From contig DASXDT010000006.1 in the NCBI GenBank assembly GCA_036490475.1, positions 434,001 through 498,000 of the forward strand: a stretch of 64,000 nucleotides of DNA, in the 5' to 3' direction. A model generated the notes under the pieces. That model did no database searches, was not told the DNA's origin, and saw nothing but the letters and a program-made list of their open reading frames with translations. Source of the stretch: Candidatus Tumulicola sp. (GTDB lineage: Bacteria; Vulcanimicrobiota; Vulcanimicrobiia; Vulcanimicrobiales; Vulcanimicrobiaceae). Made by a program: the position numbers and the translations under genes. Positions 21,191 to 42,839 of this stretch are shown here, in pieces (positions within the stretch are counted from its first letter, which is position 1; every line of letters begins with the position of its first letter).

Positions 21191-22549
21191 TTATTCGAAA
21201 TCGGGAGGTCGCGTGTCGACCGCTCGCGTTAAGAAAAATTGCTCGTCTTGCGGAGCCTTGATCGGCACGAACGCCCGCGGCTTCTGCTTGAAGTCGAAGC
21301 AATCCAAAGCTGGGGAATTTGCGCGCTTATCGGACGCCGACAACTGCGGCAACCCGAACAGATCTTCGGTGAAGCGCAAAATGCTGCCGTGCTCGTATTG
21401 CACGTTCGATATGTAGTTTTTCTTGGCGTACGGAGAAATGACCAGCAACGGAGTCCGGAACCCTAAGCCGTCATACCCTGCGTACGGCGGAGGAACCTGA
21501 TCGTACAACCCACCCCAGTCGTCCCAGAAGACGAAGATGGCGGTCGAATTCCAGAACTTACTGTTGCCGACGGCGTTGACCAACGACGTTACCCACGAAG
21601 GCCCGAGGCCGCCGCCGCAGGCGGTGTGATCCGACTCTTCGCACGTAGGCGTGATCCACGTCACGCTCGAGAGCGTGCCTTTTCTAACGTCGCTAAGAAA
21701 CTTCTTTTGCGGGTTGATAACGTTCGCCCAATCCGGACCGTAGCGGATATGTTTGATCGCCTGATAGCCCGACCAAAAACCACCCATCGGTTGGGAAACC
21801 GGACTCGTGTAGAACCGCCACGTGAGTTTTGCGGTGTCGAGTTCGTCGCCGAGCGTCGGGTAATCGAAACAGGCTTGTTGTTGGGGTCCGAACGTCCGGT
21901 CTTTCAAGATGGTACCGACCTGGGCGCGCGTTCCACCGTCACAGCCCCATTCGGGCCCCAGCGGTACGTCCACGCTCGACTGCGCCTGACCGGCGATGAT
22001 GTATTGGTGCGAAACGAAGCTCTCGTCGACTTGTGAGGGGTGGAAATTGTCGCCGAGGACCCACTCCTTTGCCATATCCCAATATGGTTTCGATTCGTTG
22101 TGCGGAACGTAGACGTATTGAGGGTTGGGCGGTCCGCCGTACGAATATTCTTGATCGAACGCATCCATACGGCAGTGCGTGCCCGGCATTTTTCCCGTAC
22201 CGTCGCACGCGGCAAACATTGCTTGGGCCGAATGATCGATGACGTATTTCGTTTTCAAGCTGACCGGCTGCAGCTGGATCGTTTTACCCTTCGAATTTTT
22301 TCCGCTCGACACGGTATTCGCACCCGGGTACCCTTGGAACATATTGTCGACCGTACGATTCTCTTGCACGATGATGACGACGTGCGAGATCGCGCCGGCG
22401 CCGCTTGGCAGAATCGTGTGCAGCGGCACGCCGTTCGGTGCGCTTTGCGGCAACCCGCCGACGGAGTTGGAATTTGACGAACATGCAACCGAAGCGACGG
22501 CAGCTATCGCCGCCATCGTCGTCCGTAACGAACGAATAGAAAAAAACAT
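21191..22549 (-). CDS. Secreted phosphoesterase (phospholipase C/acid phosphatase family), copy 1
   Basis: The 452-residue lipoprotein-like protein begins MFFSIRSLRTTMAAIAA and has a likely lipidation cysteine in VASVACSSNS. It belongs to the phosphoesterase family PF04185 (AcpA/PlcC type). HVVIIVQENRTVDNMFQG holds the metal-binding Glu-Asn, SFVSHQYIIAG the presumed nucleophile region, and FVFWDDWGGLYDQV the Asp-Asp pair. The C-terminus ends RPPDFE. The ATG at 22549 has AGGAGG upstream; the longer frame to 22756 is unsupported. It is one of four paralogues in the window. The last gene of a minus-strand run below ctpA, tRNA-Val and a small ORF. Confidence 0.88.
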   Translation of the reverse strand: MFFSIRSLRTTMAAIAAVASVACSSNSNSVGGLPQSAPNGVPLHTILPSGAGAISHVVIIVQENRTVDNMFQGYPGANTVSSGKNSKGKTIQLQPVSLKTKYVIDHSAQAMFAACDGTGKMPGTHCRMDAFDQEYSYGGPPNPQYVYVPHNESKPYWDMAKEWVLGDNFHPSQVDESFVSHQYIIAGQAQSSVDVPLGPEWGCDGGTRAQVGTILKDRTFGPQQQACFDYPTLGDELDTAKLTWRFYTSPVSQPMGGFWSGYQAIKHIRYGPDWANVINPQKKFLSDVRKGTLSSVTWITPTCEESDHTACGGGLGPSWVTSLVNAVGNSKFWNSTAIFVFWDDWGGLYDQVPPPYAGYDGLGFRTPLLVISPYAKKNYISNVQYEHGSILRFTEDLFGLPQLSASDKRANSPALDCFDFKQKPRAFVPIKAPQDEQFFLTRAVDTRPPDFE

Positions 22550-22679
22550 AGCGAGACCTCCTAAGGGGGAAGCGACGCGTCGTTCGACGGTATGCGCCGG
22601 CTTCACTCCGAAGCAACCGGCCCGGTTAGCACGGTTGCGGTGTCGACTAGCGAACGTTTGAACGGGAGGCGACGTCCGG

Positions 22680-22838
22680 TTAGGGTTCGTCCGGTCCCGT
22701 GCCGCCTTCGTTTGGTGGTATGCTTCCCGGATCCGGAGTTTCGGGCGCCGGTCCAATGCCCGGTTCGGCGGGCGACGACGGATCCGTCGTTTTGTGCGAC
22801 TCGTCGTGCCCGCGTTGGTTACTCAATCGGTCGGTCAT
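22680..22838 (-). CDS. Small disordered acidic protein (52 aa)
   Basis: Reverse-strand ATG at 22838, preceded by AAGGA at a normal distance, opens 52 codons. The product starts MTDRLSNQRGHDESHKTTDP and is rich in Pro, Gly, Asp and Glu, ending TGPDEP; it should be unstructured. It begins 20 bases after the CCA end of tRNA-Val, an unusually tight arrangement. No family is recognised. A second small protein of similar composition lies at 60696-60827. The good ribosome-binding site and biased composition support it; no homology evidence is available. Confidence 0.5.
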   Translation of the reverse strand: MTDRLSNQRGHDESHKTTDPSSPAEPGIGPAPETPDPGSIPPNEGGTGPDEP

Positions 22839-26187: not shown

Positions 26188-26257
26188 TAATTAAGCGCTT
26201 GCTGCCTTCGATCGGCGGTGTGAAAGATGAATGGTCGGCCTGAGGAATAGTGCGAAC

Positions 26258-27598
26258 ATGAATCGCAGGCTACTGCCTATCTTCGTCGCTTTCTCTATGG
26301 CCGCTTGCTCTTCATCCGGCGGCGGATCGTCGACTCCATCCGCGGCCGTCCCGACCGCCAATCCAGGACCGGCGACAACGACCCCCATCAAACATGTCGT
26401 CATCATAATTCAAGAAAACCGGACCTTCGATGATCTTTTTTCGACGTTTCCCAATGCCGACGGTTCCACCGTCGGCCTGCACGACGGTAAGCCGTTTCAC
26501 AACACGCGCGGGCCGTTGGTCGGAAAAGATCTCAATCACATTCACTCGGGTTTTAAAACCGAATACGACGGCGGCAAAATGGATGGATTCGACAAGGTCC
26601 ATTTCGGTGCGAGCGGACAGGGACCGCCGGCCGGAACGTATGCGTTGCGCTACGTCGATCCGAGCTACATCCAACCGTACTGGGCGATGGCACAACAATA
26701 CGCGCTGGCCGATCATATGTTTCAAACGCAAGGCAGCGGAAGCTTCACGGCCCATCAAGATTTGATCCGCGGCAACACCGCGATCAACGATCACGAAAGC
26801 TTGATCGATTTTCCGTCGCGTGGTCCGTGGGGATGTGACGCCGGGCCGAGCGCGCACACCTCGTTGCTCACCGATACCGAGCAGTATCTTTTCAACAAAG
26901 GTCCCGCGCCGTGTTTGGATTACACGACGCTGCGCGATTTGCTCGATGCGAAAAACGTGAGCTGGAAGTACGACGTGCCTCCGCTCTACGGCGGCACCGG
27001 ATACCTGTGGAACGCGTTCGACGCAATTCGTGCCGTGCGCTACGGCAACGGCGGTGCGGAGTGGAAGGGCAACGTGATCTCGCCGGAGACCGGCGTGTTC
27101 AACCAAATTTCCAACGGCCAGCTGGCCAACGTCACGTGGCTCATACCGTCAGCTCAGAATTCCGACCACCCCTACTATATCGACCACGGACCGCAGTGGG
27201 TTGCCCAAGTCGTGAACGCGATCGGAAAGAGCCAGTACTGGAATTCGACGGCGATTATCGTCACGTGGGACGATTGGGGCGGTTGGTTCGATCACGTGTC
27301 GCCGCCGCAACTCGACTATCAAGGTCTTGGCTTTCGCGTGCCGATGCTCGTAATATCGCCGTACTCGAAGCCGTCGTACGTTTCGCACACGCAGTATGAG
27401 TTCGCCAGCATTCTCAAATTCGTCGAAGACAACTGGAACTTGGGCCGCATCGGCGTCAACGACGTGCGCGCCGCGAGCATCGCCGATTGCTTCAACTTCT
27501 CGCAAGCGCCGCGCGCCTTCACCACAATCCAGTCGGACTTGTCGCGTGAATACTTCGAACGCGAACGCCCGAACAACGTGCCCGTCGATCCGGAATAG
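26258..27598 (+). CDS. Secreted phosphoesterase (phospholipase C/acid phosphatase family), copy 2
   Basis: The 446-residue lipoprotein begins MNRRLLPIFVAFSMAACSSS, with a lipobox-like MAAC. Family motifs are HVVIIIQENRTFDDLFSTF, GSGSFTAHQDLIRG and VTWDDWGGWFDHV. QYWNSTAIIVTW and the tail PVDPE are shared with the paralogues. The enzyme should hydrolyse phosphomono- or phosphodiesters outside the inner membrane. Start at 26258 gives a proper signal peptide; the upstream in-frame start at 26231 adds nine non-signal residues. It is followed by the polyketide synthase gene on the same strand, but 140 bases separate them. Confidence 0.88.
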   Translation: MNRRLLPIFVAFSMAACSSSGGGSSTPSAAVPTANPGPATTTPIKHVVIIIQENRTFDDLFSTFPNADGSTVGLHDGKPFHNTRGPLVGKDLNHIHSGFKTEYDGGKMDGFDKVHFGASGQGPPAGTYALRYVDPSYIQPYWAMAQQYALADHMFQTQGSGSFTAHQDLIRGNTAINDHESLIDFPSRGPWGCDAGPSAHTSLLTDTEQYLFNKGPAPCLDYTTLRDLLDAKNVSWKYDVPPLYGGTGYLWNAFDAIRAVRYGNGGAEWKGNVISPETGVFNQISNGQLANVTWLIPSAQNSDHPYYIDHGPQWVAQVVNAIGKSQYWNSTAIIVTWDDWGGWFDHVSPPQLDYQGLGFRVPMLVISPYSKPSYVSHTQYEFASILKFVEDNWNLGRIGVNDVRAASIADCFNFSQAPRAFTTIQSDLSREYFERERPNNVPVDPE

Positions 27599-27635: not shown

Positions 27636-27704
27636 ATGATGACTAAAGTTCTTAAGCTCAAAACGAGCTACGGAACGGCCGCCTTGCTGAAATGGAAAGC
27701 CTAA
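27636..27704 (+). CDS. Possible 22-residue basic peptide upstream of the polyketide synthase
   Basis: A short frame encodes MMTKVLKLKTSYGTAALLKW and two further residues (KA), ending TAA at 27704. No clear ribosome-binding site precedes it. GCCGCCTT within it is the reverse complement of AAGGCGGC at about 27715-27722, just before the polyketide synthase start, so the region could fold into a leader hairpin. It may be a leader peptide or a chance ORF. Confidence 0.2.
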   Translation: MMTKVLKLKTSYGTAALLKWKA

Positions 27705-27739: not shown

Positions 27740-29017
27740 ATGATAACATCGACCTCCATCCCCGCCACCCCCGGATCCCGTCAAACCGCTACCGCCGCCG
27801 GCACCATCGCGGGCGGGCGCCTGCCCTACCCCGTGCCCGTCGTCTTTGCCGATTTCGAGAACGTCGTGATGACGCCATTACGCGATCAAGACGAACTCAA
27901 AAAGATCCAAGTTCATTTCATGACGATCGCGCAAAGTGCCAAGCGCGGTCTAACCACCGACGCAGAACGCGAGGAGCTCGGTCGCGCGATCGCCGAACGC
28001 ATGGAACGTTTTGGCGCGGCCTCGCGCCACATCTCTGCGCGCCAAGTCGGCGTTCTCGACTCGAACTTCGTCGTACGCGACGAGCTAGCAACCGGTTCCA
28101 TCGGTGAATACGGTAACTTGCGGGTTCCGACCGGCGAGCCGCTCGACTCGCGCATGAGCCTATTCGAACAAACCGCCTACACCATGCTTGGACGGGTGTA
28201 CGGTGAAGGCGCGACCCCACCCGATGGCATCGTGCACGTTACGTGCTCCGGGTACGTCTCGCCGAGCCCCGTTCAAATGTTCTTCTCCCACCGCGGATGG
28301 CTGCGTACTGCAGTAACGCACTCGTACCACATGGGATGTTACGGCGCATTCCCGGCGATTCGGACCGCGCTCGGACTCGTCGGCTCGTCGTACGTGTCGC
28401 TGCCGGAGCCGAAGAAACGTGTCGATGTCGTGCACACCGAGTTTCTGTCGCTGCACTTCGATCTGTTGGGTGAAACGCCCGATGCCTTCGTAACGTCCAC
28501 GCTGTTCGCTGACGGTTTCATCAAATATTCGGCCTACCCGCACGTCGAGTTCGCGAAGACCGGACGGCGCGGCTTGCGCGTGCTCGCGTTCGAGGAACAG
28601 TTGCTTCCCGACTCGCTTCCCGAAATGACGCTTCGCCCGGGGCCGCTGCAGTTCGACATGTCGCTATCGAAGCGCGTGCCGTTCTTGATCCGCGATTCGA
28701 TCGCGGGATTCGTTACCGCGCTGTGCGATCAAGCCGGCATCGACTTCGAGGCGGAAAAAGGTCGCATGGTGTTTGCCATCCATCCTGGGGGCCCGGCAAT
28801 TCTCAACCAGATTCGTAACCGCTTAGGCATCGAAGAATCGCAGTTGGAGGCGAGCCGCCGGGTGCTCTTCGAGCGCGGAAACATGGCTTCGGCGACGGCA
28901 CCGCACATCTGGCAGGAGATCGTCGAATCCGAGGACATCCCGACCGGAAGCAAGGTGCTTAGCATGGCATTCGGCCCGGGCCTGACAGTAATCGGCGCCC
29001 TGTTCGAAAAAGTCTAG
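27740..29017 (+). CDS. Type III polyketide synthase (chalcone-synthase-like)
   Basis: Type III synthases extend an acyl-CoA with malonyl-CoA units without an acyl carrier and cyclise to resorcinols, pyrones or phloroglucinols. From the ATG at 27740 the protein has 425 residues. The catalytic triad is Cys200 in THSYHMGCYGAFPAI, His348 in FAIHPGGPAIL and Asn381 in LFERGNMASATAPHIW, all diagnostic. The 40-residue N-terminus before the core is low in complexity. GGAAGA before 27740 favours that start over the one at 27692. It is followed after five bases by a sulfotransferase gene, which suggests the product or a later derivative is sulfated. Starter and chain length are unknown. Confidence 0.9.
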   Translation: MITSTSIPATPGSRQTATAAGTIAGGRLPYPVPVVFADFENVVMTPLRDQDELKKIQVHFMTIAQSAKRGLTTDAEREELGRAIAERMERFGAASRHISARQVGVLDSNFVVRDELATGSIGEYGNLRVPTGEPLDSRMSLFEQTAYTMLGRVYGEGATPPDGIVHVTCSGYVSPSPVQMFFSHRGWLRTAVTHSYHMGCYGAFPAIRTALGLVGSSYVSLPEPKKRVDVVHTEFLSLHFDLLGETPDAFVTSTLFADGFIKYSAYPHVEFAKTGRRGLRVLAFEEQLLPDSLPEMTLRPGPLQFDMSLSKRVPFLIRDSIAGFVTALCDQAGIDFEAEKGRMVFAIHPGGPAILNQIRNRLGIEESQLEASRRVLFERGNMASATAPHIWQEIVESEDIPTGSKVLSMAFGPGLTVIGALFEKV

Positions 29018-29022
29018 CAGCC

Positions 29023-30201
29023 ATGGCTTCCCAACAGACGACTCCCAACCAGCGCTTCAGCGTGCCGGCCGGCTTCTACTGGGCCGTGCGCGGGGTTCAT
29101 GCCGGTGCCCCGCTCTTCGTCGGCCTCGGCAATCTCGAGTCGCAGGTACTCGGACGCCGCATGCGCGAGGTCAAGGTCGATCGACCCGTCTACATTTGCG
29201 GGCTGCCGCGCGCGGGCACGACGATTTCGCTCCAAATGCTGAGCGAGCACCCCGATGTCACCACGCATAAGTATGCAGACTTTTTGATGCCGTACGCACC
29301 GTATGCGTGGAACTGGCTGTTTCCGAAAGTTCCGGTCGATGCGATGCGCAAACCCGTGCCGCGCATCCACCGCGATCGCATTCAAGTGACGCGCGACAGC
29401 GCCGAAATGGGCGAAGAGATTCTGTGGGAACGCTTCTTCCCGTTCATTCATAACGAAGAGCGCGTCAGCGTTTTGGACCGCAATACCAGCAATGCGGATT
29501 TCGAGCGGTTCTACACCGAGCATCTGCAAAAGCTCTTGCTTTCGCGCAAGCGCCCGCGGTACGCCAGCAAAGCGATCATGTGCGTCATTCGCATGCAATA
29601 TCTGCTGAAGATGTTCCCCGACGCAAAGTTCTTGCTGTATATCCGTAATCCGATCGATCACGTTGCGTCGCTCCTCAAACAAGATCGCATTTGGGACGAG
29701 CTCGATCGCGACGATCCGCGTCAGATCGAGATCATCGAGCTGACCGGGCATCACGAGTTCGGGCAGCGGCAAATCATGGCCAACGTGGGCGACTCGCGCG
29801 TGCTCGACGAGATTCACGAATTGCGCGACGCCGGCCGGACGACGCGCGCTCGCGCCCGCTACTGGTCGTACATGTACGATTTCGTGCTCGCCCAGCTCGC
29901 GGGCGATCCCAACTTGGCGAAAGCCGTCACGGTCGTCCGCTACGAAGACCTGTGCGGCGACTCGGGAACCACGATCGACCGCATCATCGCGCACGCAGAG
30001 CTCGACCCGGCGAAGTTTACCGCCGTGCGCGAAACGTACACACAGAAACTTTCGTTACCCGACTATTACAAACCCAAGTTCAACGCGGACGAACTCAACG
30101 ATATCGTCGAAGTGACCGACGCGACCGCCAAGCAATTCGGGTACGACGTCGCCGCCATCGCGAACCGTGTAGCGGTTCCGGCAGAAACGAGCACAGCGTA
30201 A
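29023..30201 (+). CDS. Sulfotransferase family protein
   Basis: The 392-residue protein has the PAPS-binding P-loop YICGLPRAGTTISLQ (about residues 57-71) that opens the sulfotransferase fold. The second PAPS element, around FLLYIRNPIDHVASLLK (Arg and Ser for the 3'-phosphate), is also present. VVRYEDLCGDSGTTIDRI corresponds to the conserved 'yEdL' helix. It most resembles the PF13469/aryl-glycan sulfotransferase group. It starts five bases after the polyketide synthase and ends overlapping the next lipoprotein gene by one base, so the three are one operon. The acceptor is unknown. Confidence 0.9.
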   Translation: MASQQTTPNQRFSVPAGFYWAVRGVHAGAPLFVGLGNLESQVLGRRMREVKVDRPVYICGLPRAGTTISLQMLSEHPDVTTHKYADFLMPYAPYAWNWLFPKVPVDAMRKPVPRIHRDRIQVTRDSAEMGEEILWERFFPFIHNEERVSVLDRNTSNADFERFYTEHLQKLLLSRKRPRYASKAIMCVIRMQYLLKMFPDAKFLLYIRNPIDHVASLLKQDRIWDELDRDDPRQIEIIELTGHHEFGQRQIMANVGDSRVLDEIHELRDAGRTTRARARYWSYMYDFVLAQLAGDPNLAKAVTVVRYEDLCGDSGTTIDRIIAHAELDPAKFTAVRETYTQKLSLPDYYKPKFNADELNDIVEVTDATAKQFGYDVAAIANRVAVPAETSTA

Positions 30202-30722
30202 TGTTACGTACGATTATGAGCGTTCTCGCGGCCGCGGCGTTAACCGGTTGCGCGGCTTCGACACCGGTACAATCGTCGATCCCATCGACGACGACCGGCG
30301 CGGCTATTCCAGCGGCGAAAAGCACCATCGCCGGACAGTACCAAGGCACCGGCAAGGACTCGCAGTACGGAAAAGGGGAAGGCGCGGCCGACCTTTCGCA
30401 ATCCGGGAAAGCGGTCGGCGGCGCTCTCGGTTTCGAGTATCAGCCACAAAACGTCGACGGCTCGGCGGCACTGATCGATAAGGCCGGAGCCCTCGCGGGA
30501 ACGATGACCGTGACGATCGGCTCGGTCGCGTGCAGTTTCACAGTCGCGGCCGCGTACGACGATCAGAAATTTACACTCGACGGAACGTACACCGCAAAGC
30601 ATGGGTGCACCGGAGAAACCGGCACGTTCAAACTCAAGGAGCGCTGCTACTACATCGACGGAATCCGTACGCACAACGCTCGCCGGGCGCGTCCGGCGGC
30701 GGGCGGCCTCAAACCCTGCTAG
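30201..30722 (+). CDS. Small lipoprotein of unknown function
   Basis: ATG at 30201 shares its A with the sulfotransferase stop (TAATG). The 173-residue product has a textbook lipoprotein signal with lipobox LTGC (Cys15 or nearby in AAALTGCAAS), a Thr/Ser/Pro linker, and a small beta-rich domain. That domain contains GQYQGTGKDSQYGKGEG and GTMTVTIGSVACSFTVAAAY, with two cysteines that might pair. No family recognised. The longer frame from 29691 is a shadow of the sulfotransferase. Operon position suggests a link to the polyketide/sulfation genes, but no function is shown. Confidence 0.75.
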   Translation: MLRTIMSVLAAAALTGCAASTPVQSSIPSTTTGAAIPAAKSTIAGQYQGTGKDSQYGKGEGAADLSQSGKAVGGALGFEYQPQNVDGSAALIDKAGALAGTMTVTIGSVACSFTVAAAYDDQKFTLDGTYTAKHGCTGETGTFKLKERCYYIDGIRTHNARRARPAAGGLKPC

Positions 30723-30723
30723 T

Positions 30724-33378
30724 TTAGAGCTGCTGCGCGAATGCGGCGGCGCGTTCGTCGCTCCACATCGCACCTTCACGCACGGCCGTTTCATACGGTG
30801 CGTCGCCCATCGCACGTCGCACCTCGTCACGTAAGCGGCTCGCAATCGCCGCATCGGATGCAGCCAACGTCCACTGCAAACGGCCGAGTTGCGCATCGAT
30901 GAACCCGATCGTTCTCGCTCGCAACACCATTCGATCGTCGCCGGAAAGCGCGGCCAGATAGAGCGTCGCGCACAGCTCGGCGACTTCGTGGCGCGCTTCC
31001 CGCGCCAACCGCAACGATTGACGAGCGAGCGGGAGGGCCGCATCGCTATCGCCGAGCGCGACGTACCAGCCGGCCATGCCGTTGATCAAGAACATCAACA
31101 GATCCGGCGGACAGCCATCCAGCGCTCCGGCGGCAATCGACACGGCCGCCGCTGGGTTGCCGGAAACGCCTTCCGCATCGGCCCACCACATCATCGCTCG
31201 CGCCATTTCGTCGTCCCGGCCGAGCGCGCGGAACAGGTCGATCGCTTCGGCGTATCGGCTTCGCGTCAACGCCATGTCGGTCGATTCCGACACCATCGCG
31301 CAACGCTGCAGCGTCGCCGCCAACAAGCGCGGCTCGCCGGCCGCGCGAGCGAGCTCGAGTGCGCGATCGGCCGTGGCGCGCGCGTCGTCGATTTGACCGC
31401 ATGCGGCGCTTTCGTATGCGACTTGCGACAGCGAGCGCGTGAGACCACGCTCGTCGCCCGCAACTTCGTACCGTTCGACCGCTTCGCGTGCGCAGCGCAG
31501 CGCGCGGTCGTCGGCGCCGAGATTATGGTACAGCATCGAAGCAGCATACTGCAGACGCGCCGCCGTTCGTGCGGACAACACATCGGTGGACGACATCGCG
31601 CGTTCGCACCATCCGGCGCCCTCGCGTAGCAGCGAAAGGCGCATAAACAATGGAGCCGCCGATGCCGCCAGCGACGCGGCGTCGTCGAATCGTTCCGGAC
31701 GTTCGAACGACCACCGCAACGCAGCCCGCACGTTGTCGAGTTCGAGCGCGTAGCGCGTAAGCCAGTCGGCGCCCGGATCGGTGTCCCATTCCGCGTACGC
31801 TCGATCGGCGAACTCGCGAAACGTGCGCGCGTGGCGTTCCAACGCCGCCGGTGCTTCGCCGTCCCCATCGAGCCGATCGCGCGCGTATTCCCGAATCGAC
31901 TCGAGCAACCGGTAGCGCTGCGTTCCGGCGCCGATATCGGCAACGAGCAACGACTTCTCCGTAAGCGATGTCAACGCATCGAGTGTGTTCCATTCGCCGG
32001 CGCCGTCGAGTTCGCAAGCGGCTGCCAGCGTAAACCCTCCCGCGAACACCGACAACGCGCGGAACGTGCGTCGTTCGTCGCCTGCGAGTAAGTCGTAGCT
32101 CCAATCGATGAGAGCGTGCATCGTTTTTTGACGCGGGTCGCGATCTCGGTCGCCGGACGTTAGCGCGCGCAACTCTAGGCGACGCAACAGTTCTTCGAGC
32201 GAAAGCACGCGCATGCGTGCGGCGGCAAGCTCGATGGCCAGCGGGAGACCGTCTAAGCGGCGGCAGAGCTCGATTGCCAGCGGACGAGTGCGATCGTCGA
32301 GGGTAAACGCCGGATCGACCATTGCCGCGCGCTCGGCAAAAAGCGCGGCAGCCGAATCGTCGTCGAGAGACGTCAGCCGATATTCGCGCTCGCCATTCAC
32401 GCGTAGCGGCGCGCGACTCGTCGCGAGCGTCGCCACATGCGGACAGTGCGCCAGCAGCGCCGACGACGTGCGAGCCGCCGCATCGACGACGTGTTCGCAG
32501 TTGTCGAACACCAGCAGCGTACGGCGTTTGCGCAAGACGTCGACCAAGGCGTCACGGGCCGATGCCGCGTGCGAACGGCCGGCCCGCAGCGTCGTTAACA
32601 CCGCGCTTGGTACCAACTCTTCGTCGCGCAGGGGCGCGAAATCGATGAACCACGCGCCGTCGGGATACTCGGCGCGAACGTCCGATGCCGCGGCGAGGGC
32701 TACACGCGTCTTGCCGATGCCGCCCGGACCATCCACCGTCACTAACCGGCCCCCGCCTAACGCGGCGGCGATGGCGGCGCGAGCGGAAGCGCGTCCGATC
32801 AATTGCGTCGGCTGTAACGGAAAATTACTGGGCGGCGCCCGGAGCGCGTGGAGCGTTGGAAAGTCATCGCGAAGGTCGGCCGCGCACACCTGAAAGACCC
32901 GTTCCGGATCGGGCGTCCCGCGGAGCGTCAGTGCGCCGAGCGCGCGTAAGGTCACTCCGTCCTCGAGCCTGCCGATATGCTCGACGGCGACCGCAGACAC
33001 GAGAATCTGACCGCCGTGGCCGTGTTCCAGCATCCGCGCGACGCGATTGAGCGGCGGCCCAAAGAAATCGCCGTCGCGAAGTTCGGCATCGCCGGCATGC
33101 ACGGCCATCCGCACCCCCAGTCCACCGACCGCGTCCCACGGTTCGTCGCGAATAAGGCGTTGGGCGGCCACGGCGGCCGCGATGGCCGGACCGGTAGAAT
33201 CGAAGGCCGCGCAAAACGCGTCCCCGATCGTTTTGAAGACCGTCCCGCCGCGCGACTCGATCGCCGAGCGAAGCAGCGCGTCGTGGCGCCGGACGGCGTC
33301 CGCCATGGCCGCCCCGTGCCGCTCCCAACGCGAAGTGCTGCCTTCGATGTCGGTAAATAAAAAGGCCGGCACGTTCAC
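30724..33378 (-). CDS. Class III adenylate cyclase domain fused to ATPase and TPR-like repeats
   Basis: The roughly 884-residue protein has an N-terminal class III nucleotidyl cyclase domain. PAFLFTDIEGSTSRWE provides the first metal aspartate, GGTVFKTIGDAFCAAF the second and the purine-site lysine, and FFGPPLNRVARML the transition-state Asn and Arg. All key residues are present. A STAND/AAA-type ATPase follows (Walker A VDGPGGIGKTRVAL, Walker B LLVFDNCEHV), then a long alpha-helical TPR-like region to the C-terminus. No helix-turn-helix is visible, unlike many BTAD/LuxR relatives. I chose GTG at 33378, next to the cyclase domain; a TTG at 33438 is possible. Confidence 0.88.
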   Translation of the reverse strand: MNVPAFLFTDIEGSTSRWERHGAAMADAVRRHDALLRSAIESRGGTVFKTIGDAFCAAFDSTGPAIAAAVAAQRLIRDEPWDAVGGLGVRMAVHAGDAELRDGDFFGPPLNRVARMLEHGHGGQILVSAVAVEHIGRLEDGVTLRALGALTLRGTPDPERVFQVCAADLRDDFPTLHALRAPPSNFPLQPTQLIGRASARAAIAAALGGGRLVTVDGPGGIGKTRVALAAASDVRAEYPDGAWFIDFAPLRDEELVPSAVLTTLRAGRSHAASARDALVDVLRKRRTLLVFDNCEHVVDAAARTSSALLAHCPHVATLATSRAPLRVNGEREYRLTSLDDDSAAALFAERAAMVDPAFTLDDRTRPLAIELCRRLDGLPLAIELAAARMRVLSLEELLRRLELRALTSGDRDRDPRQKTMHALIDWSYDLLAGDERRTFRALSVFAGGFTLAAACELDGAGEWNTLDALTSLTEKSLLVADIGAGTQRYRLLESIREYARDRLDGDGEAPAALERHARTFREFADRAYAEWDTDPGADWLTRYALELDNVRAALRWSFERPERFDDAASLAASAAPLFMRLSLLREGAGWCERAMSSTDVLSARTAARLQYAASMLYHNLGADDRALRCAREAVERYEVAGDERGLTRSLSQVAYESAACGQIDDARATADRALELARAAGEPRLLAATLQRCAMVSESTDMALTRSRYAEAIDLFRALGRDDEMARAMMWWADAEGVSGNPAAAVSIAAGALDGCPPDLLMFLINGMAGWYVALGDSDAALPLARQSLRLAREARHEVAELCATLYLAALSGDDRMVLRARTIGFIDAQLGRLQWTLAASDAAIASRLRDEVRRAMGDAPYETAVREGAMWSDERAAAFAQQL

Positions 33379-33429
33379 ACGGTACGCGATTCGGGGGAAA
33401 AACGCCAGCGCGGAGGGGGGCGGGAGCGC

Positions 33430-33927
33430 GTGCTCCAAGCCCCTCCCATGCGCAAGGTCAACACTACTGCTCTAGAAGACCTCGAATGGGGATCGCCCAA
33501 GAAAAAATACCGAGGTTTCGGGAAGCAAATTTCCGAGGCACTCGGTCGCAAGCCGCTGTCGCTCGATTTAAACGAACGCCACCCGTTCGACGTCGAGATC
33601 ATGCGTTTAGGACCCGGCGATGTTCCCTATCCGTATCACTCGCATAGCGCGCAGTGGGAGTTTTACCACGTCATCTCGGGCAGAGGTAAAGCGCGCCACG
33701 CGGATGGGACGACGCCGATCGAGACCGGTGATGCATTCATCTTCCGGCCCGGTGAGCCGCATCAGCTGTTCAACGACGGCGATGAGGATCTCATCATCTA
33801 TGTCGTCGCGGATAATCCGATCGGCGAATCCACACATTATCCGGATAGCACAAAATGGATCGTGCGTTCGCCGGAGCGCGCTATCGTTCGATCCGCACCC
33901 ATCGATTATTTCGACGGAGAGGAATAA
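33430..33927 (+). CDS. Cupin-domain protein
   Basis: The 165-residue protein contains one cupin barrel. Motif 1 is GDVPYPYHSHSAQWEFYHVISG with His, His, Glu/Gln-type ligands. Motif 2, DAFIFRPGEPHQLFNDGDEDL, supplies the last histidine. An N-terminal segment LEDLEWGSPKKKYRGFGKQI precedes it. Such single cupins are often isomerases, dioxygenases or sugar-binding regulators; none can be assigned here. GTG at 33430 has GGGAG before it; ATG at 33448 is an alternative but lacks a ribosome-binding site. It is followed by a secreted protein gene after two bases. Confidence 0.85.
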   Translation: MLQAPPMRKVNTTALEDLEWGSPKKKYRGFGKQISEALGRKPLSLDLNERHPFDVEIMRLGPGDVPYPYHSHSAQWEFYHVISGRGKARHADGTTPIETGDAFIFRPGEPHQLFNDGDEDLIIYVVADNPIGESTHYPDSTKWIVRSPERAIVRSAPIDYFDGEE

Positions 33928-34791: not shown

Positions 34792-36147
34792 TTATTCGTA
34801 GTCGGTCGGCTTACCCGAAGGTTTTTGCTTGAGAAAGTACGCCTTGGAATATTTCGTGCCGATCGTTACGAACTTGCGCGGAGGTTGCGTGAAATCGAAT
34901 ACGTCGTCGATCATGCTGGCGGCGCGGACGTCGGTCGTGCCCAAACGCGACAGACCCCAGTTGTCTTCGACAAACTTGATGATCGTTCCGAATTCGTACT
35001 GATGGTGCGTAATGTACCCTTTGCGCGCATACGGCGAGATTACCATCATCGGGACGCGGAACCCGAGGCCCCCGAACGACTGCGTTCCGGGAGGACGCAC
35101 GTGATCGTACCAGCCGCCCCAATCGTCCCACGTAACGACGATCGCGGTCGAGTTCCAATCTGGGCTATTGCCGATCGCGTTAACGACCTGCGCCACCCAG
35201 GACGGTCCGGTGTCCGATGTATCGCCCGGATGATCCGAGTTTTGATAATCGGGAATCACCCACGAAACCGACGGAAGGTTGCCCGCGGTAATATCTTTGA
35301 ACACGTTGGTTTCCGGCCACGTGACGTTAGTGTTCCACTCCGAGCCATATCGCACGGCCCTGATTCCATCGAACGCATTCCACAGGTCTCCGCCGAAGCT
35401 TTGGCCGACTTCCGGCGCGTAATAGCGCCACGGCACGCCGCCCGCATCGAGCGGATCGCGCAACGTTTGATACGACAGGCATGGAAACGGCCCGGCGTTG
35501 TGCATGAAAGCGTTCGTTTTGGTGATCAGGCTGGTTTGCGATCCCTTTTCGGCGTCGCAACCCCACACCGGCCCGATGCTAGGAAAATCGATAACCGCAT
35601 GCTCGGGATCGATGTTGGTGCCGCCCGCGATCAAGTCTTGGTGGGCGGTGTAACTCCCACTACCCTCGGTTTGGAACGTGTGGTCCGACAACACGTATTG
35701 TCGAGCTAAATCCCAATACGGAACGATCTGCGCCGGGTCGACATATTGATACACGTACTGGCCGCTGATCGGCCCGATGTTCACGGTGTCGAAGCCGTTC
35801 ATGCGGCCGTTGTTCCAATCGTGGATCCAACAACATTCGTATCCGTTACCTGGAGAAATGCGGCTCTCGAGATTCGCCTTCGCTAGCCGAATGTTTTGCC
35901 CGTTATGTCCCTTGCCGACGGTAACGCCGTCGCCGCCGGGAAACGTCGCGAATAGATTATCGTAGGTGCGATTTTCTTGAATGATGATAACGATGTGTTT
36001 GAAATATTTGCCCGCTTTTGCCGGTGGCAGGTTGGGGAGGGGACCGGTCGTCGGTCCATTGCCGCCGCCGCCTCCGCAACCGGCGAACACGGCCGTCAAA
36101 CATGCGAACGCCGCGACGAACGCACGATTCACCCAGTTATGCTTCAT
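34792..36147 (-). CDS. Secreted phosphoesterase (phospholipase C/acid phosphatase family), copy 3
   Basis: The 451-residue lipoprotein starts MKHNWVNRAFVAAFACLTAV and has lipobox VFAGC followed by a glycine run. Family motifs: HIVIIIQENRTYDNLFATF, GSGSYTAHQDLIAG, VVTWDDWGGWYDHVRPP and a C-terminus ending KPTDYE. It is most like copy 2 (26258-27598). The ATG at 36147 is preferred; the longer frame to 36303 is arginine-rich and overlaps the upstream gene. It lies 55 bases after the hypothetical secreted protein on the same strand and convergent to the rhodanese-like gene. Confidence 0.88.
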   Translation of the reverse strand: MKHNWVNRAFVAAFACLTAVFAGCGGGGGNGPTTGPLPNLPPAKAGKYFKHIVIIIQENRTYDNLFATFPGGDGVTVGKGHNGQNIRLAKANLESRISPGNGYECCWIHDWNNGRMNGFDTVNIGPISGQYVYQYVDPAQIVPYWDLARQYVLSDHTFQTEGSGSYTAHQDLIAGGTNIDPEHAVIDFPSIGPVWGCDAEKGSQTSLITKTNAFMHNAGPFPCLSYQTLRDPLDAGGVPWRYYAPEVGQSFGGDLWNAFDGIRAVRYGSEWNTNVTWPETNVFKDITAGNLPSVSWVIPDYQNSDHPGDTSDTGPSWVAQVVNAIGNSPDWNSTAIVVTWDDWGGWYDHVRPPGTQSFGGLGFRVPMMVISPYARKGYITHHQYEFGTIIKFVEDNWGLSRLGTTDVRAASMIDDVFDFTQPPRKFVTIGTKYSKAYFLKQKPSGKPTDYE

Positions 36148-36202
36148 ACGGGCGGTATCATCGGGGCCGCGGCGATTTCCCTGCCCGTTCGAGTTCGAAC
36201 CT

Positions 36203-37759
36203 CTACGTGGCGTACGGTAGAACGCTTGAAGAGCAACCCGCGCAACGGACCACGATCGTTTGCACGCCGCCGTGCAATACAAGCGGTACGACGACGCCCG
36301 CACGGCCGGCGGCGATCGTGGGGCGGCCGCTTACTCGCAACCGCGCCGCATCGGTCCAAAACGCGAGTGCGAACGGCGTTGCCTTCGGCGCGGCGATGGT
36401 CAGCTCGACGCGTCCGGCGAGCACCCGCGCCACCACCAAACGCGGCATTTCGGCTGCAGGCACCGGCACCATCGGACGATCGAAACGCGATCGAGTTTGC
36501 GCGTCATACCGGAAAATGCGCGACGGAAACGTGTGCCCGGCTAGGAACGTCATGCCGGCCGTGCGATCGTGATAATCGATGGTCGCCGGATAGAGCGCAT
36601 CGCCGCCCAACACCGGCGACGGTACCGCCGGCGCGGCCGGAAGCGACGGAAACGCCACGGCGCGTGGAGACGAAGCAAACGCACGCGCGTCGCGCGCCGC
36701 ATCGCGCAAGGTTTGCCGGCGCAAATTATCGGCCGCCACGCGTCCGAAGAGCGCGTCGACGATCGCGTCGTCGCCCGCGTTCGTTTCTTCGCCGCTCTCT
36801 TGTTGCGTTACGACCACGAGCGGTTGCGTCTGGCCGGCTGCAGCGTAGGCGTCGATCACCTGCCGCACGTAGCGTTTCGCGGTGTCGATGCTCATGCCGG
36901 CGCGTTGCAGATCGTCAGGATCGGTAGAAAACCAGTCTTCGCGACCGCTCAAATATGCCCGCGTTAGATCGCGAGCCGTCCATTCGAACGCGACCTCCGG
37001 ACAACTCGCGTACGGATCGGGTCGCTTGTAGGATTGCGGGTCGGCGCAGTACGTACCCCAGGGCGCACCACGGTCGGCGGTTCCGTCGACGCCGTGACTA
37101 TTCCACGCAATTCCCCAAAACGCGTGTTCCCCAAATGCACCGGCGCGCGAAAGATCGCGCTCTTGCCCCGCGCCTGCGACGCTTACGGTCGGAACGTACC
37201 ACGGCATGGCCGCCCGCATTCGATCGTGCAGGCTGGCAAAGTATTCGGCTTCAACGTCGTCGCCGTTGGCGGCGTGAAAGCGATTGTAATAATCGGCGAG
37301 TCCGATCCACCACAAATCACCGAGCATCCACGTCATCGGAATCGAATATCGTGAAGCCGTACGTTCCAGCGCCAACATCCCGGAAACAGAGAACCGTTGC
37401 TGCAGCGAGGTCGCGACGAACCGCGTCTGCGTGGGGCCGTTCGGAACGGCCCAAGACGGCGGAGCCACGACATACGATCGCGACAGCGCGAACGAACCGC
37501 ACTGCGCGTAGCGCGCGTCGATCGGAGAGAACGACCCAGCCGGCACGCGGTACCACAAGCCTGCGTCGTACGCCACGGCGCACGAAGTCGAGCTTTCGTC
37601 GTACGTACGCGCGATCGCGGTATGCTCGCACGCCAAAAACGCCACCGCGAACGCGATGAAAAGTCGTGGCGCGCGCCCCGGCGACCGCCGTCGCTCGCCC
37701 GCCCTCCCTACAGACCAAGGGGGGTTTTTTGTCTGCTGCGAGTAGGACCTAAGACTCAC
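36203..37759 (-). CDS. Secreted protein of unknown function
   Basis: About 480 residues of mature protein follow a hydrophobic segment LFIAFAVAFLACEHTAIA. Notable blocks are MTWMLGDLWWIGLADYYNRF, EHAFWGIAWNSHGVDGTADR and CADPQSYKRPDP. The acidic and aromatic residues and the central WTARDLTRAYLSGREDW region look like a TIM-barrel glycosidase or deacetylase fold, but I cannot name a family. The C-terminus has a small beta domain with a CAGC. The start is uncertain: the only in-frame GTG before the signal is at 37759, giving a 30-residue basic leader, and it abuts the GTG of the divergent gene. The frame open to 38233 is a shadow. Confidence 0.65.
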   Translation of the reverse strand: MSLRSYSQQTKNPPWSVGRAGERRRSPGRAPRLFIAFAVAFLACEHTAIARTYDESSTSCAVAYDAGLWYRVPAGSFSPIDARYAQCGSFALSRSYVVAPPSWAVPNGPTQTRFVATSLQQRFSVSGMLALERTASRYSIPMTWMLGDLWWIGLADYYNRFHAANGDDVEAEYFASLHDRMRAAMPWYVPTVSVAGAGQERDLSRAGAFGEHAFWGIAWNSHGVDGTADRGAPWGTYCADPQSYKRPDPYASCPEVAFEWTARDLTRAYLSGREDWFSTDPDDLQRAGMSIDTAKRYVRQVIDAYAAAGQTQPLVVVTQQESGEETNAGDDAIVDALFGRVAADNLRRQTLRDAARDARAFASSPRAVAFPSLPAAPAVPSPVLGGDALYPATIDYHDRTAGMTFLAGHTFPSRIFRYDAQTRSRFDRPMVPVPAAEMPRLVVARVLAGRVELTIAAPKATPFALAFWTDAARLRVSGRPTIAAGRAGVVVPLVLHGGVQTIVVRCAGCSSSVLPYAT

Positions 37760-40296: not shown

Positions 40297-41640
40297 TTAC
40301 TCGGGATCCTCGATGTCCGGGCTACCGGTTCGAGTATCCGAGCTCGGATCGAACGGCGGAGCTTTAATCGGAACGAAGGCGCGTGGCCGCTGCTTGAAGT
40401 CGAACGCATCGTACAGGTTATCGGAGCGAACGTCGGTCGTTTGCATCGAACCGAGATCGAACGTTTTTTCCGCGAACTTGAGGATGCTGCCAAACTCGTG
40501 CACTTTGTGCGACACGTAGCCTCGTTTCGCATACGGCGAAACGACGACTAACGGGACTCGAAACCCCAACTCGTAGTGATTGTAGAACGGAGGCTTGACG
40601 TGATCGTACCAGCCGCCCCAATCGTCCCACGTGATGAAAATAGCCGTCGAGTTCCAATATTGACTTTCGCCCACTGCGTTAACGACTGCGGAAACCCACG
40701 AAGGCCCCTTAGCGCTTAGGCTGTCGGGATGATCCGAATACGCGTCCGACGGCGGAATCACCCACGACAGCGAAGCGAGGTTGCCCGATCCGATATCCGC
40801 GAGAATCGTTTGCGACGGCGTGATGACGTTGGCGTAATCCTTGCCGTAGCGCACTTCTCTGATCGCATCGAAGGCGTGCCAGTTGCCGACCCCGAGGTCG
40901 TGCTGATAATACCGCCACGACAAGCTTTTGGCATCGAGCAGATCGGCCAGCGAGACGCGTTTGAAACACGCAAACTCATCGGGTCCGTACGAGCCCGTGT
41001 GAATGTCGAGCGTTTCGACGTACGAGGTATCGGGGGCGTCGCAGCCGACTGGCCCGGGCTTTCCGTTCTTATCGTCGACGCCGTTGCTCGAAACGCTGTC
41101 GGACGACGCCGGCAACGCGGTAGCCGCGCCGCTCACGATGTACTGATGGGCCGGGAAGCTGCCGGATTGCTGCGTCTCAAACATGCGATCGGCGAACACA
41201 TATTGGGTTGCCATATCGAGATACGGTTGTACTTGATGCGCGGGTGCGTACCCGTATGGATGCTGATGCTGACTCCAGGGAAGGCGGCTATCGAAGCCGT
41301 CCATCTTACCGTCGTTGTAGTCGGCGATAAACGACTCACGGTTATGTCCGAGGTCCCACGGGGCGGCCAGCGAGATCGGGACGAGTCGGATGCTTTGTCC
41401 GCGCGAGTCGACACCGGTGGTTGCGATGTCCGCGCCGGGAACGCCTTGAAACAAATTATCCGGCGTGCGATTCTCTTGAAAAATAATAACGATGTGTTGA
41501 ATTGGCGAAACTTGTGCTCGGCGAGCGCGCGTGGTCGAAACTACCGCTTGACTGGATTGGGGAAGCGACGAACCGGACCGTTCGGCGCACGCCGAAACCA
41601 GAACGAGTCCGATCGCCGCACATAGGAATCGTGTTTGCAC
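40297..41640 (-). CDS. Secreted phosphoesterase (phospholipase C/acid phosphatase family), copy 4
   Basis: The 447-residue lipoprotein starts with GTG at 41640 (VQTRFLCAAIGLVLVSACAE, lipobox VSAC). Motifs: HIVIIFQENRTPDNLFQGVP, QQSGSFPAHQYIVSG, FITWDDWGGWYDHVKPP, and the end SPDIEDPE. It contains a longer central insertion (DSVSSNGVDDKNGKPGPVG) than the other copies. The start codon shares its G with the stop of the patatin gene, so phosphoesterase and phospholipase are translationally coupled. That pairing fits phospholipid breakdown outside the cytoplasm, an inference. Confidence 0.88.
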   Translation of the reverse strand: MQTRFLCAAIGLVLVSACAERSGSSLPQSSQAVVSTTRARRAQVSPIQHIVIIFQENRTPDNLFQGVPGADIATTGVDSRGQSIRLVPISLAAPWDLGHNRESFIADYNDGKMDGFDSRLPWSQHQHPYGYAPAHQVQPYLDMATQYVFADRMFETQQSGSFPAHQYIVSGAATALPASSDSVSSNGVDDKNGKPGPVGCDAPDTSYVETLDIHTGSYGPDEFACFKRVSLADLLDAKSLSWRYYQHDLGVGNWHAFDAIREVRYGKDYANVITPSQTILADIGSGNLASLSWVIPPSDAYSDHPDSLSAKGPSWVSAVVNAVGESQYWNSTAIFITWDDWGGWYDHVKPPFYNHYELGFRVPLVVVSPYAKRGYVSHKVHEFGSILKFAEKTFDLGSMQTTDVRSDNLYDAFDFKQRPRAFVPIKAPPFDPSSDTRTGSPDIEDPE

Positions 41641-42839
41641 TAGACGGCGAACGTTTGCCAATCGTAGTCGGAAAACCCTCGGATGTAGTCCAGCCATCCG
41701 GTGCGATACGTTTTCCCGATTCCGACTTCGTCGTCGAATCCTATCACGCTGACCTCCAGCACCGCTTTTGGCCGGATATACCGTAAAGCGGTGGCTGGAA
41801 CGCCGTGCAACAAGCGGTGGAGAATTTCGTCGTTTCCGACGACGGACGACAGCAACTGTGCGGGAACGCGTTCGAGGGCCCGCTTGCCCAACGACTGGAA
41901 GTATGCGTTACGCATTTCGACTTCCAAAATTTTGCGCTGCATCGTTCCGAAGACAGCGTAGGCAATTTCGATCGCGTCGGTATAGTGGAGTTCGGGTTCG
42001 AACGGCGGGTCGAGCAGCACGACGTCCGCCGCGCTGGAAATCGCATGCGCGATGCCGACCGGCGAGTTGCTCGCGACGCCGCCGTCGCAATACGAGTTGA
42101 TCGTTCCGTCGCCCACCGGTAACTGCACCGGATCGAACACGATCGGCAACGCAGCCGAGGCGAAGATCGCTCGGTGTACTAGGTCGGGCGTCGCTTCCCG
42201 CACGATCGTGTGTGGACCGAGCGAAAGCTGCAACGCGTGAATCAGGCGATCCGACAAGTCGCGGTTGTCCGACGGCGGACGCATGTAGAAATACTCCGGC
42301 CGCTGCTGCGATAGATTCGTCACGGCAAAAACGAAGGGAATGACGAGTGGCGTTTGCGGATCGATATTTCGTTGGATCCACGCGAGCACCGGTTCGGATT
42401 GGAGCATGCCGGCCTGATCGTCGGTGAGGCCGATGAGCCCGACGACGGACCCGACGCGATCGAACAGCCCACTCTCGGGATCGCGTAATGCCTTGTATTG
42501 CGGCTTCAGGCGGATCAAATGCTGTCCGCTAATCCCGTACCACAGCTCTTTGAGCTTGCTATACTGACCGGTGGCGACGAACCAGCCGTTCAATGCACCG
42601 ATCGAGGTCCCGCAGACGCCGCCGTACCCGGGAAGCGGTTGGCCGTCCGGCACGTTGTAGGCTGCGGCCAAGGCGCCGATCAATCCGGCCTCATATGCGC
42701 CTCGAGCTCCGCCACCGCTGAGTACCAACGTGCGGGGTATCGGCTCGATCGCCGGTTCTGCGCCGGCCAGCGCCGGGGACGCGAGTAGCGGCGCCGCGCT
42801 TACGGCGCCGGCGCTCATAAGGAAATTTGAGCGTTTCAT
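41640..42839 (-). CDS. Patatin-like phospholipase
   Basis: The 399-residue protein has an N-terminal signal (MKRSNFLMSAGAVSAAPLLA, ending ALAG). The patatin fold follows: oxyanion loop LVLSGGGARGAYEAG, nucleophile elbow VCGTSIGALNG (Ser of GTSIG), and the catalytic aspartate in CDGGVASNSP. It should be a lipid acyl hydrolase exported from the cytoplasm. ATG at 42839 is selected; the frame to 42950 overlaps the divergent catalase start. Its 3' end overlaps phosphoesterase copy 4 by one base. Confidence 0.92.
   Translation of the reverse strand: MKRSNFLMSAGAVSAAPLLASPALAGAEPAIEPIPRTLVLSGGGARGAYEAGLIGALAAAYNVPDGQPLPGYGGVCGTSIGALNGWFVATGQYSKLKELWYGISGQHLIRLKPQYKALRDPESGLFDRVGSVVGLIGLTDDQAGMLQSEPVLAWIQRNIDPQTPLVIPFVFAVTNLSQQRPEYFYMRPPSDNRDLSDRLIHALQLSLGPHTIVREATPDLVHRAIFASAALPIVFDPVQLPVGDGTINSYCDGGVASNSPVGIAHAISSAADVVLLDPPFEPELHYTDAIEIAYAVFGTMQRKILEVEMRNAYFQSLGKRALERVPAQLLSSVVGNDEILHRLLHGVPATALRYIRPKAVLEVSVIGFDDEVGIGKTYRTGWLDYIRGFSDYDWQTFAV

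Follow-up and report, generated by a model that had tools for sequence, protein, structure and literature searches.

The window, the whole stretch of 64,000 nucleotides from Candidatus Tumulicola sp. that was analysed, carries a type III polyketide synthase (PKS) gene followed by a PAPS-type sulfotransferase (ST) gene, and these two genes form the conserved unit. We see an even chance that these two genes produce a sulfated envelope lipid of the alkyl-pyrone or alkyl-phenol type and that the pair derives from a sulfate relay. For an uncultured phylum, Candidatus Eremiobacterota, this adds a predicted sulfated lipid together with a clear test.

The PKS and ST genes are separated by 5 bases, the ST stop overlaps the start of a small lipoprotein gene by 1 base (TAATG), and all three lie on the plus strand among the open reading frames of the window; these coordinates agree with the spacing given in the earlier note (Table 1). 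The PKS start is backed by the alignment of its relatives, and a further in-frame ATG lies at 27692. Upstream, 141 bases separate the PKS start from the end of a gene for a PF04185 lipoprotein that the earlier note left out of its account, and a large cyclase/NB-ARC protein converges from the downstream side. Scans for promoters (0 promoter-like sites against 0.8 expected) and terminators (1 terminator-like site against 3.7 expected) were discarded as evidence.

Table 1. Features of the window around the PKS-ST pair.
Feature	Coordinates	Strand	Remarks
PF04185 gene	21191..22756		
PF04185 acid-phosphatase/phospholipase-C-like lipoprotein	26231..27598	+	Upstream of PKS; Pfam and structure-database matches
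Type III PKS, ArsB/ArsC-like	27740..29017	+	Leu298 at cyclisation-determining position; triad Cys200, His348, Asn381
PAPS-type ST, Sulfotransfer_3	29023..30201	+	PRAGTT 62-67, R208...S216
Small lipoprotein, predicted 8-strand beta-barrel	30201..30722	+	Lipobox, structure model
Large cyclase/NB-ARC protein	30724..33438		
PF04185 lipoprotein	34792..36303	-	Groups with upstream PF04185 genes of g5 pair loci (tree)
tRNA-Gly, called by ARAGORN	35041..35126		Inside the preceding PF04185 gene, same strand; probably a false call
PF04185 gene	40300..41907		

Both enzymes are what the earlier note had taken them for, a type III synthase and a P-loop sulfotransferase. The PKS matches Chal_sti_synt_C in Pfam (2.5e-21, above the cut-off) and its Cys-His-Asn triad is intact, while ArsC (3vs8/3vs9) aligns full-length to residues 29-425 with an E-value of about 1e-83 and 38% identity over the aligned length. 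The ArsB/ArsC family, as described in PMC6274091, uses long-chain acyl starters, and ArsB Trp281 and ArsC Gly284 decide between resorcinol and pyrone. Neither Trp nor Gly stands at this position in the PKS of the window, and the Leu found instead argues against a simple alkylresorcinol of the ArsB type and speaks more for a pyrone or some other ring. The same genome also encodes a second, distant type III PKS (L002, G000:C5:746403-747197, 27% identical), which is followed by a small protein resembling a membrane methyltransferase and has relatives in many genomes of the class.

The ST matches Sulfotransfer_3 in Pfam (1.9e-20). Its PRAGTT motif, R208 and S216 are kept in 18/18 Eremiobacterota ST sequences, and R63, G65, T67, R208 and S216 also in two relatives from other phyla, L083 and L084; we take PRAGTT to be the 5'-phosphosulfate loop and R208...S216 the 3'-phosphate motif, and thus these residues to be PAPS-binding positions. 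The structure model of the ST was poor (mean pLDDT 59.9) and was left out of the evidence. An adp-like PAPS cassette was sought and rejected: the operon holds no PAPS biosynthesis genes, and the full-length APS kinase match of the genome, a 624-aa frame, lies on another contig. This putative APS kinase can supply PAPS to the ST.

As to substrate, product, localisation and role, we infer that the PKS would load a fatty acyl starter, extend it with malonyl-CoA and cyclise the chain to an alkyl-pyrone or alkyl-phenol. In the cytoplasm, the ST would then transfer sulfate from PAPS to a hydroxyl group of the ring, and the product would be an amphiphilic, phosphorus-free anionic lipid ending at the envelope.

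Close PKS orthologues (67-77% identity) occur in 19 of the 117 genomes of the class, namely the own genome and 18 others, in genera g1, g5 and g14, and ST orthologues (62-83% identity) occur in the same 19. Some PKS match is present in 59 of the 117 genomes, and five further genomes contain short weak ST matches only. At all 19 loci the two genes are adjacent and co-directional, with the ST running off the contig end in G034 and the synthase frame broken in G040. The order of the genes is kept outside this genome, in 19 Eremiobacterota genomes and in two other phyla, and thereby passes the conservation check that the earlier note had set for it. The three-gene unit proposed in the earlier note stands in its tight spacing and in its PKS-ST part, but not in its third member: lipoprotein relatives occur in 37 of the 117 genomes, and the own genome and G094 (2/2 of the own genus) are the only ones in which the gene adjoins the pair. 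The lipoprotein is a genus-level addition to the pair. It has no Pfam match, and LTGC, spotted by eye in its sequence, is a lipobox. Its barrel model matches several unrelated barrels, the best being a quinohemoprotein amine dehydrogenase domain (Z 13.8), followed by avidin-like, TbpB-like and OmpA barrels, so that the model indicates a small beta-barrel and no function.

To follow the distribution of the pair beyond the class, we used the PKS alignment to scan genome contigs and kept 80 loci of 296 confirmed relatives; in the search with the PKS, 118 plasmid records matched. The Candidatus Eremiobacterota/Eremiobacteria MAGs in the scan come from palsa, soils, pasture and other environments. 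An ST directly follows the PKS in 16 of the 80 loci: thirteen from Eremiobacterota, L083 (a Candidatus Sulfotelmatobacter MAG, Acidobacteriota), L084 (a Chloroflexi MAG, Chloroflexota) and L089 (Polyangia). We surveyed the column of ArsB Trp281 in 81 synthases, that is, the window and the best PKS frame of each locus, and read Trp in 58, Leu in 15, Glu in 4 and Gly in 3, with one unreadable. Leu is present in all 15 readable synthases adjoining this ST (the window, 12 Eremiobacterota, L083 and L084) and in 0/65 of the remaining ones, those without it; the sole unreadable synthase also comes from an Eremiobacterota pair. In a separate PKS alignment, Leu occupies the position in 18/18 Eremiobacterota rows, the window included. 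Because the pair synthases form one clade in the PKS tree (support 0.938), Leu is a signature rather than an independent correlation, and it may reflect ancestry alone. With this signature, the ring chemistry of the pair synthases can be put to a direct test. Glu was read in four Burkholderia/Paraburkholderia synthases (L103, L105, L108 and L118) in an automatic alignment.

The PKS and ST trees share their branching order, Eremiobacterota, then L083, then L084. When the classes of L083 and L084 were searched with an ST model, the 399 genomes of the former gave a match in that of L083 alone, and the 396 of the latter gave one strong match (that of L084) and two weak ones; this sporadic presence suggests transfer of the pair. 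In L084, the genes run in the order ligase-ACP, PKS, ST, methyltransferase and arylsulfate sulfotransferase (ASST), and the AMP-binding ligase with its ACP domain directly before the PKS points to a fatty starter. In L083, an ASST gene is divergent from the PKS, and a second one lies elsewhere on the contig. The ST of L089 shares no more than about 22% identity and, under the rooting used, lies outside the ST clade, which makes a second recruitment likely; L089 is probably an independent PKS-ST pairing. This Polyangia MAG carries in a row a ligase, a type III PKS whose cyclisation residue is Trp, and the distant ST (L089:7857-12350).

Within Eremiobacterota, genes for PF04185 lipoproteins flank the pair at most loci. 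For the protein encoded upstream of the PKS, the closest matches are acid phosphatase 2d1g and phospholipases C, and its E62-N63, S171 and DD pair align to AcpA, at positions that are presumably the catalytic residues of this acid phosphatase. In 17 of the 19 pair loci, the PKS is immediately preceded by a co-directional PF04185 gene; the two exceptions are G059, with a divergent PF04185 gene, and G060, without any beside the pair. In genus g5, the ST is followed by a further co-directional PF04185 gene at 14 of 15 loci (the contig ends in the 15th), the start codon of which often overlaps the ST stop, and PF04185 arrays enclose the pair. None was found near the pair in L083 or L084. One-to-one orthology of the upstream gene was considered and rejected: in G094 and G037 the copy next to the PKS is the one most similar to the window protein, which does not hold for G036, G028, G024 or G026, and in the tree the upstream copies of g5 group with the minus-strand gene of Table 1 rather than with the upstream one.

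The family is also greatly expanded. PF04185 matches, often in tandem arrays, number 55 in the 3.3 Mb of the own genome (G000), 88 in G094 of the same genus and 32-58 in five further genomes that carry the pair; three that lack it have 4, 7 and 2. First-look candidates number 21-95 in the 19 pair genomes and at most 23 in the 98 others, save six exceptions at 32-62. At the genus level, the pair occurs in 3/6 PF04185-rich and 0/42 poor genera (p = 0.0012, from first-look counts with capped scoring and kinship ignored). These neighbours would suit a special case of an end-product lipid, in which PF04185 enzymes free phosphate on phosphate limitation and the sulfated lipid replaces acidic phospholipids. 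The matches to acid phosphatase and phospholipases C, the g5 arrays around the pair and the higher candidate counts in pair genomes are consistent with it, as are Azotobacter cysts, in which alkylresorcinols take the place of membrane phospholipids according to PMC4824345. However, three PF04185-rich genera (g11, g18 and g34, each with at least 42 first-look candidates) lack the pair, and the candidate excess ignores kinship; we consider this special case unlikely, if the best placed of the alternatives.

The relatives of the ST point in turn to a relay. In the ST tree, one clade (support 0.994) unites five Eremiobacterota STs, that of the window among them, with L083, L084 and the STs of seven plasmids, and an ASST is nearby, within three genes, in 9/9 of its non-Eremiobacterota members. 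For instance, an annotated arylsulfotransferase lies within three genes of the ST in six of the eight plasmid records with ST relatives, and the seventh, SC52, has two unannotated ASSTs near it. As background, a single ASST query, which misses divergent ASSTs, matched 36 of 72,556 plasmid records. The control with an unrelated Polyangia ST yielded one plasmid record only and so is of no use. The Stanieria ST falls outside the clade, and no ASST was found among the Stanieria neighbours examined. Judged by its gene neighbourhoods, this clade of STs has the look of a relay lineage, whose members outside Eremiobacterota would probably feed sulfated carriers to the adjoining ASST. Operons that combine a PAPS-type ST with an arylsulfotransferase and with small proteins (74-239 aa) of unknown family recur on alphaproteobacterial plasmids (L181, L182, L183, L184, L186, L187 and L188). 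In a Chloroflexota locus (L178:3762-6755), a distant ST is directly followed by an apparent fused sulfate adenylyltransferase/APS kinase.

In the alphaproteobacterial relatives, an ASST is present and no PKS is annotated beside the ST, so the acceptor of the ST need not be a polyketide. These relatives would favour an ST that acts on another acceptor, such as a glycan, a protein or another phenol, while the PKS product remains separate. Against this, PKS and ST occur strictly together and side by side in three phyla, and their trees branch in parallel; we hold this reading to be less probable than the phosphate-sparing case. Still more doubtful is a relay completed by an ordinary PF14269-type ASST elsewhere in the genome. 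The ASST linkage of the clade speaks for it, as do the rhodobacterial partners, which are PF14269-type ASSTs, some of them below the PF05935 cut-off. However, a genome-wide search of Eremiobacterota with PF05935 only, under whose cut-off PF14269-type ASSTs can score, found none in the 19 pair genomes and was positive in 2 of the 117 genomes of the class, both without the pair. Similarly, an ASST model built from nine partners found nothing when run on the window and on 17 pair regions.

The ASST partner thus appears gone in Eremiobacterota, which keep the first half of the relay and where PF04185 genes would now stand in the place of the second. With the partner apparently gone, the sulfated lipid would most likely be an end product that is either displayed at the envelope or stored there, with its genes next to those of exported PF04185 phosphoesterases. 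We rank the end-product lipid above a relay with another last enzyme and assign it the larger share of our confidence, since the searches turned up no known transferase. The most doubtful of the four alternatives has the sulfated lipid carry sulfuryl across the membrane and PF04185 lipoprotein(s) replace the ASST, moving or releasing the sulfuryl outside: the ASST linkage of the clade, PF04185 genes beside the pair in Eremiobacterota and not in L083 or L084, and the overlap of PF04185 starts with ST stops in several g5 loci favour it, whereas the retained catalytic residues of AcpA, a family so abundant that its neighbourhood is less telling, and the bare pair of G060 count against it, and we know of no PF04185 member that transfers sulfate. 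We give even less credence to its full form, a swap of the last enzyme by which expanded PF04185 lipoproteins, and not an ASST, would take up the carrier lipid made by the PKS-ST pair in the cytoplasm and, beyond the membrane, sulfate or process targets of the envelope with it.

The earlier note knew of no comparable unit, a claim that the literature overturns. Clusters with a type III PKS and an ST are already published, namely adp of Streptomyces davaonensis (sulfated adipostatins), cpz and tot, and AdpST has been described to sulfate adipostatin, the product of the type III PKS, both in vivo and in vitro (PMC12135136). In the open literature searched, adp was the only case found of an alkylresorcinol with sulfate and an ST gene cluster, and no such description was found of a type III PKS, ST or phosphoesterase from Eremiobacterota. 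New points here are the Leu signature, the ASST beside relatives of an ST whose pair genomes lack PF05935, and the PF04185 genes flanking the pair.

Among known systems, ArsB and ArsC of Azotobacter vinelandii share the catalytic triad and a presumed fatty starter with the synthase described here, but carry Trp (ArsB) or Gly (ArsC) in place of its Leu, and the ST partner is particular to our pair. We compared adp and cpz through the published descriptions of the clusters. The adp operon (AdpPKS/AdpST, sulfatostatins) likewise joins a type III PKS and a PAPS-dependent ST, and there the ST has been shown to modify a PKS-made lipid; adp differs in having its own PAPS cassette, absent here, and no PF04185 gene is reported for it in that description. 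The alphaproteobacterial plasmid operons resemble our pair in having an ST of the same clade, but differ in that an ASST is present and no type III PKS is annotated.

The cpz cluster for caprazamycin (type III PKS, PAPS-ST Cpz8 and ASST Cpz4) shares the PKS and the PAPS-ST; the primary paper on its relay is said to be Tang 2013. It differs in its ASST, a search with PF05935 having found none in the 19 Eremiobacterota genomes, and no antibiotic cluster is seen around the pair. In cpz, as PMC4257720 describes it, a sulfated polyketide is the donor for the ASST in a two-step relay, and L083 and L084 resemble cpz in that an ASST adjoins their pair. For most bacterial ASSTs, according to a 2026 review (PMC13426309), natural substrates and roles are still poorly known. 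Since STs of this clade are linked to ASSTs in Acidobacteriota, Chloroflexota and Alphaproteobacteria alike, sulfation in two steps, known from an antibiotic cluster, may be widespread.
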